This document shows positions 1 to 61,904 of a DNA stretch of 64,000 nt, in pieces; positions within the stretch are counted from its first letter, which is position 1, and every line of letters begins with the position of its first letter. A program made the translations under genes and the position numbers. The notes below the pieces were generated by a model that saw only the letters and a list, made by a program, of their open reading frames with translations, had not been told where the DNA came from and made no database searches. Source of the stretch: Stramonita haemastoma (taxonomy: Eukaryota; Mollusca; Gastropoda; Neogastropoda; Muricidae); NCBI GenBank assembly GCA_030674155.1, contig CM060340.1, forward strand, positions 1,715,051-1,779,050, given 5' to 3'.

Positions 1-3000
1 TGAGAATATTTTACAGCTGTATTCTCTCTCTCTGGGAACAGATGACATTTACAAAATGCATACACATGGGGGCTGGATGTAAAAAAGCACAAGAGTGATT
101 ATTCCATTATCCTTGATATAAAAGAATAAATCAAATCAAATCAAATCAAATCAAAATCAAATCTCTCTCTCTCTCTCTGTATCTCTCTCTCTCTCTCTCT
201 CTCTCTCTCTCTCTCTCTCTCTCTCTCTCTCTCTATCTCTCTCTCTCATGATCTTTCCTAGTTTTCTTCTCTGTCTCTCCTTTCTTTATCTAATTCATCT
301 CTGCACAGAGAGAGGGAGAGAGAAAAAGAGAGAGACGGAGACAGAGACAGACAGACAGACAGAGAGAGAGAGAAGAGAGAGAGAGAGAGAGAGAGAGAGA
401 GAGAGAGAGAGAGAGAGAGAGAGAGAGAGAGAGAGAGAGAGAGAGAGAGAGAGAGAGAGAAGAGAGAGAAAGGGGGTTGGGGAGAGAAGAAAGAAGCAAA
501 ATAATTTGAATTATTCAAAAAATCAAATTCATTCCACCATCAACATTACATACTATGAAGCAAAGAAACAAAAAATCAACGAACGAACAAACGAACCATC
601 CAACCAACCCACCCACCCACCAACCAACCCAAAATCAAACCAAAACCAAAACAACCCAACACCAAAAACAGCAGGCTTGCTCTCTACCTGTTTCAGTTTG
701 AGGAGGATGTTGTCGACAGCGGAGTGGGTGTAGCTGGTGAGGAGCACACTCTGACCCAGCTCCCTGAGGATTTTCACCAGAGCCACGATGGTCGACGTCT
801 TCCCTAAAGTCACACCACACACACACACAACACAACGCTTAGTTCACACCACAGTCAACAAATTCAACACCACTCGGTCAAGAGTGCTCTATTTAGCGCG
901 CTCCTTCCTTTTACCTAGTCGTGTGTGCTCCTGCTCCCTGAGGATTTTCACCACAGCCACGATGGTCGACGTCTTCGCTAAAGTCACACCACACACACAC
1001 ACAACACAGCGCTTAGTTATCACAACCACGCTTCTGCTGACTTTTCTTCCAGTCTTTTTCTGTCTGTTTTGCTTGTGGCTGTTGCTTGCTTTCCTGCAGT
1101 CACACCACCCACACACACAACACTTAACCACCTCAGTGAACAAATTCAACACCACTCAGTCAAGAGTGCTAAACTAAATTTACCGTGCTCCTTCCTTTTA
1201 CCTAGACGTGTGTGGTCAGCTCCTGCTATAAATAGCACCACCTGGCCCCATCTGGGCTGGGATGGGATGAAATAATCAGCAGCTGAGAGGAGCTGAAAGT
1301 GGGGGAAACTGACTGCTGTGTGCATGTTTCTGCCGACTTTCTTCCAGTCTTTTTCTGTCTGTTTTTGCTTGTGGCTGTTGCCTGCTATAACAGCAGCGTA
1401 TAACACCTTGTGGGTCACCCAGAATATGCACTATGACCTACAGTTCTCATCAAGGAATGGCTGTGAGACTGTTATGAAGACACTGGTCAAGACATTGAGT
1501 TTGTGTGTGTTACTTTGTGTATGATTCTTTTCCAAGTGCCTTGCCATACAGGCAGCCATACTCCAACTCCTGAGGAAATCTATGCTTTGACATCTCCTGT
1601 AATTCAGTCACTGGAGTTGCTAAAACACAGCTGTCAGTCAGTTTCCCCACTTTCAGCTGCTCTCAGCTGCTGTTCATTCCATCCCAGTCCAGCCCAGCTG
1701 GTGCTATTTATAGCAGGAACTAGCTGACCACACTTGGACAAGGGAAAAGAAAGGGGTGTGCTAATTTTAGCTGTGGCCCTGGACCCTTGACTGAGTTCTG
1801 CTGGATTTGCTTGAGCACTGTGAACAAGTGTACACTGCAGCTGCTATACAGCGATGTGCTAGTTTGGCCATTGCTTCAAACTTCAGCAAGCAAACATGAT
1901 TAAACGGATAAAAGTAGACATGTGTCCATTCAAAGTGTGGTCAGAGCACTCGCTTTCCCCAAGTCAAGTTAAGCAGCGTCGAGCGTGGTTACCAGTTGGA
2001 TGGGTGACTGTTTGCGCACCTTGGTTATGGGACACCTTTACCTTTACCTTACCTCACAGCACTGTGGTTCAGCCCATGGGTGTGTGGAAACTTTCCTGTG
2101 TATAATAAATCATGTTCTTACTCACTCATATCTTTAAACCTTTTCTATTTCCTTGTGATTATCAGCACAGTGACATACAATGCTATGCAAGTGACACACA
2201 TATTTGTTTTCTTGCCTGCCTGCCTGCCTGCCTGCCTGTCTGCCTGTCTGTCTATCTCTCTGCATCCCCCCCCCCCCCCTCTCTCCCTCTCTCTTTCGTT
2301 CTCACCTGTTCCTGGGTAGCCTTTGATGAGCACATAGTCTTTGGACATCAGGACCTGGTAAACGACACAATTAAAAACATGAACATACATGGGTGCATGT
2401 GTGCATGCATGTGTGTGCATGCTTGCATGCATGTGTGTACATATGTGCTCACATGTGTGAGTGTGCTTGTATGTTTTGTACACCTTTTCGAAACTTAAAG
2501 TGACATTGAAGGCGATTTCTTATGCTCAAAGTTGTTTCCTATTTTCAGAGATTTTCTTCTCATACGAGTTGAAATTCTCCAGAACTTATTCCTTTCAAAG
2601 TCCCAATCATTAACCTTAACATCAAATTAACAAGAATTACAATGATTTTAAGTTACAATATCATCATTGCAATTTTATCATTTTTGTTATTAAGACGATA
2701 CATAAAAACAAACCAATAAAAATACCCCACAAATTGTCACTTTTCTGTTTAGTAATTGTATGGTTATTTCATTTCTTTCTTGTCTTTTGTTTTATTTTTG
2801 TTGAAGGGGGAAGGGGGGGCACTTTCTTTTGAGTTTTTTTTCTCCATTTCCCTCCCCCCCTTTTTTTCGTTATTTCTATGTTCAATTATTTGTGTCTTCA
2901 AAACACTAAGGTTTTAATAAAAAAGAAAAGTTTGCAAGAGACCTTTATATATACACAACAATGTTACATCACAACACAAAGATGTTAACAATCAGTGAAA

Positions 3001-61904: not shown

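Follow-up and report, generated by a model that had tools for sequence, protein, structure and literature searches.

What places tandem repeats on the exon edges of two neighbouring genes? The preliminary description of this snail DNA noted that, in DNA2 and in a TMCO6-like gene, short arrays sit directly at exon–intron boundaries, with a repeat unit that takes in the terminal exon bases together with the splice site. The analysis reported here covers the window, that is, the whole 64,000-nt stretch of CM060340.1, and uses rebuilt models of both genes:

43741-61904, plus strand: TMCO6/importin-alpha-like ARM gene, 12 exons, 479 aa.
688-39856, minus strand: DNA2 gene, 22 exons (D1 to D22), its C-terminal exons lying outside the window.

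These models contain 65 junctions, of which 33 are donors and 32 are acceptors. In the TMCO6-like gene, alignment to orthologues places the start of exon 8 at 55529, a 24-base shift that takes the protein from 487 to 479 aa. Its top matches are in Nucella lapillus (78% identity) and Babylonia areolata (75%), then in Littorina, Batillaria and Pomacea; those of the DNA2 protein are in Babylonia (74%) and Nucella (73%), with Littorina and Batillaria next. Such matches point to a caenogastropod, and probably to a neogastropod. Consecutive accession names on equally long contigs suggest that the two genes are adjacent in Nucella and Batillaria too. The starts of DNA2 exons D5 (32796) and D9 (23579) were placed from local frames, and the D1/D2 junction is uncertain, as the orthologues disagree at that point. 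The DNA2 reading frame is intact only if two apparent one-base slips are ignored. By eye, relative to the snail orthologues, these fall in D4 (33750-33829) and D9 (23464-23579), both on the minus strand, and they are either assembly errors or real damage. A PDB search with the N-terminal piece of DNA2 gave a single match, with an E of 0.42, and plasmid BLAST gave no match.

The window also contains other repetitive elements. In DNA2 intron 6, a mobile element at 25600-30500 carries reverse-transcriptase and phage-integrase-family (tyrosine recombinase) domains, as well as a 101-bp inverted repeat inside 25600-26064; it looks like a DIRS-type retroelement. Antisense to DNA2 in intron 14, a long open frame with a reverse-transcriptase domain (14010-16013) and a second frame without a Pfam match (16300-16833) probably make up a LINE (14010-16833). 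Two Rfam tRNA matches on the minus strand, 9318-9390 and 59337-59409, have flanks that are alike by eye and are probably copies of a tRNA-derived SINE. Microsatellite and low-complexity sequence, with many GT/CA and GA/TC tracts, makes up 11,720 bp (18%) of the window by mask.

Extra direct copies that include exon-end bases and the splice site are present at 10 of the 65 junctions (one of them, D17d, borderline); by motif search, six are donors and four are acceptors. The arrays are listed below with the numbers of extra copies from that search (T, TMCO6-like exon; D, DNA2 exon; d, donor; a, acceptor), followed by a minisatellite that lies close to an exon.

49619-49913, plus strand: T4d, junction 49664/49665; units of exon end, donor and GT tract; two extra copies, at 49786 and, in decayed form, at 49911.
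51361-52000, plus strand: T5d, junction 51370/51371; unit of ~36 bp; 17 extra donors, 16 scoring the same as the used donor.
56405-57573, plus strand: T9a, junction 57554/57555; unit of ~105 bp; 10 extra copies, AG kept in 7.
57690-58983, plus strand: T9d, junction 57723/57724; unit of ~51 bp; 24 extra copies, 7 with a donor score equal to that of the used site.
60749-61214, plus strand: T11a, junction 61199/61200; unit of 46 bp; 7 extra acceptors, all with the same score.
61569-61793, plus strand: T12a, junction 61760/61761; unit of 72-81 bp; 2 extra copies.
23193-23470, minus strand: D9d, junction 23464/23463; unit of 93 bp; 5 extra donor-like sites.
19441-20175, minus strand: D13d, junction 20128/20127; exon end and donor in two extra, spaced copies, at 19666 and 19446.
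5427-5959, minus strand: D17d, junction 5927/5926; a borderline case with two spaced copies of degenerate sequence, at 5479 and 5427.
756-1093, minus strand: D22a, junction 804/803; two extra copies, one at 977 with 45/48 exon bases and an acceptor-like one at 1093 with little exon match.
6613-7444, minus strand: 12-bp minisatellite of 832 bp in a DNA2 intron, stopping 7 bp short of D16 (start 6605), whose junction it does not span.

The exon portion of the unit is short at D9d (7 bases), and at T5d it is only 5 bases in 16 of the 17 extra copies; in the second-outermost copy of T9d, 33 of 34 exon bases are matched. At D17d, only 4 intron bases fall inside the best local alignment, and a relaxed extension yields 23/25 exon and 20/30 intron bases. 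Seventy extra copies keep GT or AG. GT is present in all 52 extra donor copies, having been part of the search motif for 28 of them. A duplication with an offset of 64 bp also runs from the TMCO6-like stop codon into the 3' flank (61902-61998), and a large array follows at 62298-63935.

An ungapped scan of the 65 junctions, within 3 kb, detects spanning direct copies at nine, with D17d under the threshold, and at six when microsatellites are masked. None of the nine scan-positive junctions has an inverted copy in its vicinity or a direct one more than 6 kb away, and for these junctions an origin from dispersed repeats is rejected for that reason. The junctions named in the preliminary description are thus recovered: for the TMCO6-like gene, donors 4, 5 and 9 and acceptors 9, 11 and 12, by both scan and motif search; for DNA2, its exons 10 and 14 (donor), 23 (acceptor) and, given there as possible, 18, which correspond to D9, D13, D22 and D17 (borderline) if the constant offset of one between the two numberings is followed.

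Given this number of sites, which copy is spliced? The TMCO6-like frame is continuous when the outermost sites are used. At the ten array junctions, the predicted orthologues (Nucella, Babylonia, Littorina and Batillaria, with Pomacea for the TMCO6-like gene) contain no repeat-coded insertion, and at the D9 junction their lengths differ by a few residues. Since the predicted orthologous proteins lack such insertions, we infer that the outermost copy would be the working splice site. Sites were scored, leave-one-out, with a small position-weight matrix for which the splice sites of the window itself supplied the data. Among the 70 extra GT/AG copies, 39 score at least as high as the used site: 1/2 at T4d, 16/17 at T5d, 7/24 at T9d, 3/7 at T9a, 7/7 at T11a and 2/2 at T12a and, in DNA2, 0/5 at D9d, 2/2 at D13d, 0/2 at D17d and 1/2 at D22a. 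On the scores of so small a matrix, the choice cannot be put down to site strength alone; position and exon definition are likely to set it. Use of 59 of the 70 alternative sites would bring a frame shift or a stop; the other 11 are in frame and open (T5d 6, T9d 2, D9d 2, T12a 1), the calls at D9 being made in a frame chosen so that the exon stays open. At T5d the extension is open from all 17 alternative donors and in frame from the first 6, so that T5d isoforms are possible.

How did the arrays arise? We consider it highly probable that they are mirages, a term taken from amphioxus, and that as such they go back to ordinary tandem duplication of local segments that by chance included an exon–intron junction. 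The first copy would have stayed attached to the exon and remained the working splice site. Further duplication or unequal exchange would then add copies on the intron side, where they would be free to drift. The copies are presumably neutral, and slippage or unequal exchange would be the source of the arrays; as far as the sequence can tell, they are probably neutral mirages in a snail. With microsatellites masked, repeats within 3 kb fall into 30 direct and 5 inverted clusters; unmasked, direct and inverted HSPs are about equally numerous (562 and 511), presumably because of microsatellites. In four arrays an outer copy matches more of the exon than the inner ones do (10 vs 5 bases at T5d, 34 vs 15 at T9d, 33 vs 18 at T12a and 50 vs 35 at D13d), as if the first duplication had been the longer one and a shorter unit further in had then been amplified. 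A longer exon match in outer copies is absent from the other 6 of the 10 arrays. Simple random birth does leave one result unexplained, namely the enrichment at junctions seen per locus.

That enrichment depends on the null. The preliminary description argued that boundaries are hit too often for random birth, a claim that is supported when loci are counted, less strongly when the loci are uncurated, and is not supported when bases are counted. Per base there is no excess: with 15.5% of the window in arrays, circular shifts would place 9.85 junctions inside them, and 9 are observed (P 0.65). A nearby direct copy is found at 775 of 2837 noncoding points (27%) unmasked and at 390 of 2837 (14%) masked; the junctions, with 9/65 (14%) and 6/65 (9%), are below these values, and exon-interior points give 9/375 and 7/375. 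Nine of 21 arrays touch junctions vs 5.66 expected under circular shifts (P 0.046). When shifted arrays are limited to at most 60 exon bases, the expectation falls to 1.51 and no shift reaches 9.

In the per-locus null the expectation is set by unit length. Here 10 of 20 tandem loci, hand-curated from the 30 direct clusters in a window itself picked for looking odd, span a junction vs 1.80 expected, a count not attained in any of 200,000 simulations. Taken separately, the TMCO6-like part gives 6/10 vs 0.77 expected and the DNA2 part 4/8 vs 0.99; for the whole list with five small arrays added, the count is 10/25 vs 1.85. Four clusters were dropped from the list as parts of larger complexes (847-1217 and 1032-1386, belonging to D22a; 48196-48973 and 48594-48840, belonging to that at 48287), and those at 3510, 7834, 18735, 19018, 19799 and 34015 were dropped by eye as dispersed-repeat pairs or unclear. 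The cluster test alone flagged only D22a, D13d, T9a, T11a and T12a as spanning; D9d and D17d were counted through the motif search, and T4d, T5d and T9d through scan and motif search. For all 30 clusters, uncurated, P is 0.048 under a lenient rule (10 spanning) and 0.24 under a strict one (8 spanning, 6.24 expected). The strict rule gives P 0.014 for the 26 clusters with an offset of at most 500 and P 0.002 for the 23 with an offset of at most 300. Of these nulls, we think that the one per locus comes closer to the way arrays are born, because an array cannot grow into the exon. The excess at junctions may have arisen because the oldest non-transposon DNA adjoins the exons in these introns, or it may be chance in a window that had been flagged.

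Alternatively, duplications might start preferentially at exon edges, promoted by GT/CT-rich splice sites, R-loops or microsatellite-driven fork stalling. We regard this as possible but rather doubtful. The curated per-locus count speaks for it, while the per-base null and the uncurated count of all 30 clusters speak against it. Seeding at TG/CT-rich splice sites, put forward in the preliminary description, has weak support. In the first 30 bp of intron, 6 of the 10 junctions with arrays have a microsatellite; the figure is 29% for noncoding points and 22 of 55 for the remaining junctions, from which the array junctions differ little. The adjoining 500 bp of intron contain no masked microsatellite at T5d, T9a or T11a, though by eye the T5d unit is TTG-rich. 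Microsatellites beside a junction may help to seed duplication, and birth favoured at boundaries is possible.

Could the extra splice sites instead have been retained because they aid or tune exon recognition, or provide in-frame isoforms? Selection for decoys or buffering had been suggested for these arrays, and we judge it very unlikely. In its favour are the equal scores of the T5d and T11a copies and the alternative sites that are open and in frame. The splice motif is also better conserved than the rest of the unit at T11a (0.973 vs 0.925) and T9a (0.931 vs 0.759), with a bias, as the copies were picked by a motif that contains the site. At T5d and T9d, the two arrays that allow a fair test, per-position conservation does not support such selection: the splice 9-mer is conserved to the same degree as the rest of the unit at T5d (0.993 vs 0.993) and to a lesser degree at T9d (0.921 vs 0.977). 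In addition, AG has been lost in 3 of the 10 T9a copies, 17 of the 24 T9d copies are weaker donors, and the predicted orthologues have no such inserts.

That consensus or assembly errors made the arrays is scarcely credible: small sequence errors may exist, since D4 and D9 show apparent one-base slips relative to the orthologues, but the arrays occupy ten places with unrelated units, their copies vary by substitutions and in unit length, and diverged direct repeats of 30-170 bp should be beyond what small consensus errors can produce.

Neutral mirages, the reading we prefer, have relatives in other genomes. In the human interferon-inducible gene 6-16, a minisatellite of splice-donor units stands at an exon edge; a donor is repeated in tandem there too, in a single human gene, unlike the series in the snail. 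Zhuo et al. reportedly proposed in 2007 that human introns derive from tandem arrays, a proposal that, by its title, likewise links such arrays with introns. For a potato RdRp gene, a published report describes an intron gained via tandem duplication across an intron–exon boundary, with the splice signals copied (PMC4974935). Duplication across the boundary has copied splice signals in the snail as well; unlike the case described for potato, the snail copies stay within existing introns and create no new intron position. Consistent with this, the array junctions show no extra exon segment relative to four (DNA2) or five (TMCO6-like) predicted orthologues.

The closest relatives are in amphioxus, and the earlier view that no named phenomenon covers such a series is wrong. 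Two papers (PMC3087553, PMC3902484) give the name mirages to minisatellite-like tandem repeats that cross exon–intron boundaries, 5' and 3'. The loci concerned are Adh3, the globin genes BflGb6 and BflGb9, TnC and PGBD5, the last added by PMC3902484, which cites TnC. As described there (PMC3087553, PMC3902484), units measure 10 to 160 bp, AG/GT is present in many copies, regular splicing is suggested, and the boundaries of the clusters escape homogenisation. Length polymorphism and somatic instability also count among the marks of the amphioxus type. Like these, the snail units span boundaries on both donor and acceptor sides (10/65 junctions, one borderline), and their copies largely keep GT/AG (52/52 donor copies; 7/10 at T9a). 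They differ from the amphioxus cases, as far as those are described, in occurring in a snail, at ten junctions of two adjacent genes, a single one of which holds as many as 24 extra copies, and in being known from the sequence of one haplotype alone.

The T5d intron offers a natural test of splice-site choice: it has 18 donors with a spacing of 30-40 nt, 17 of them with the same score, and only one keeps the ancestral protein. It is tempting, if rather unlikely, that snails or neogastropods carry mirages genome-wide and more densely than the lancelet papers report, with introns of a dozen or more equal sites among which position decides, and that some, such as T5d, leak in-frame extensions and feed intron sliding. 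Were such arrays common in snails, they would supply ready material for new or displaced introns and would easily mislead gene annotation. A literature search of partial coverage found mirages reported in lancelets only, and none in molluscs. The snail arrays are a dense, real case of a known but little-studied phenomenon in a lineage for which we found no report, and they extend mirages from lancelets to molluscs.
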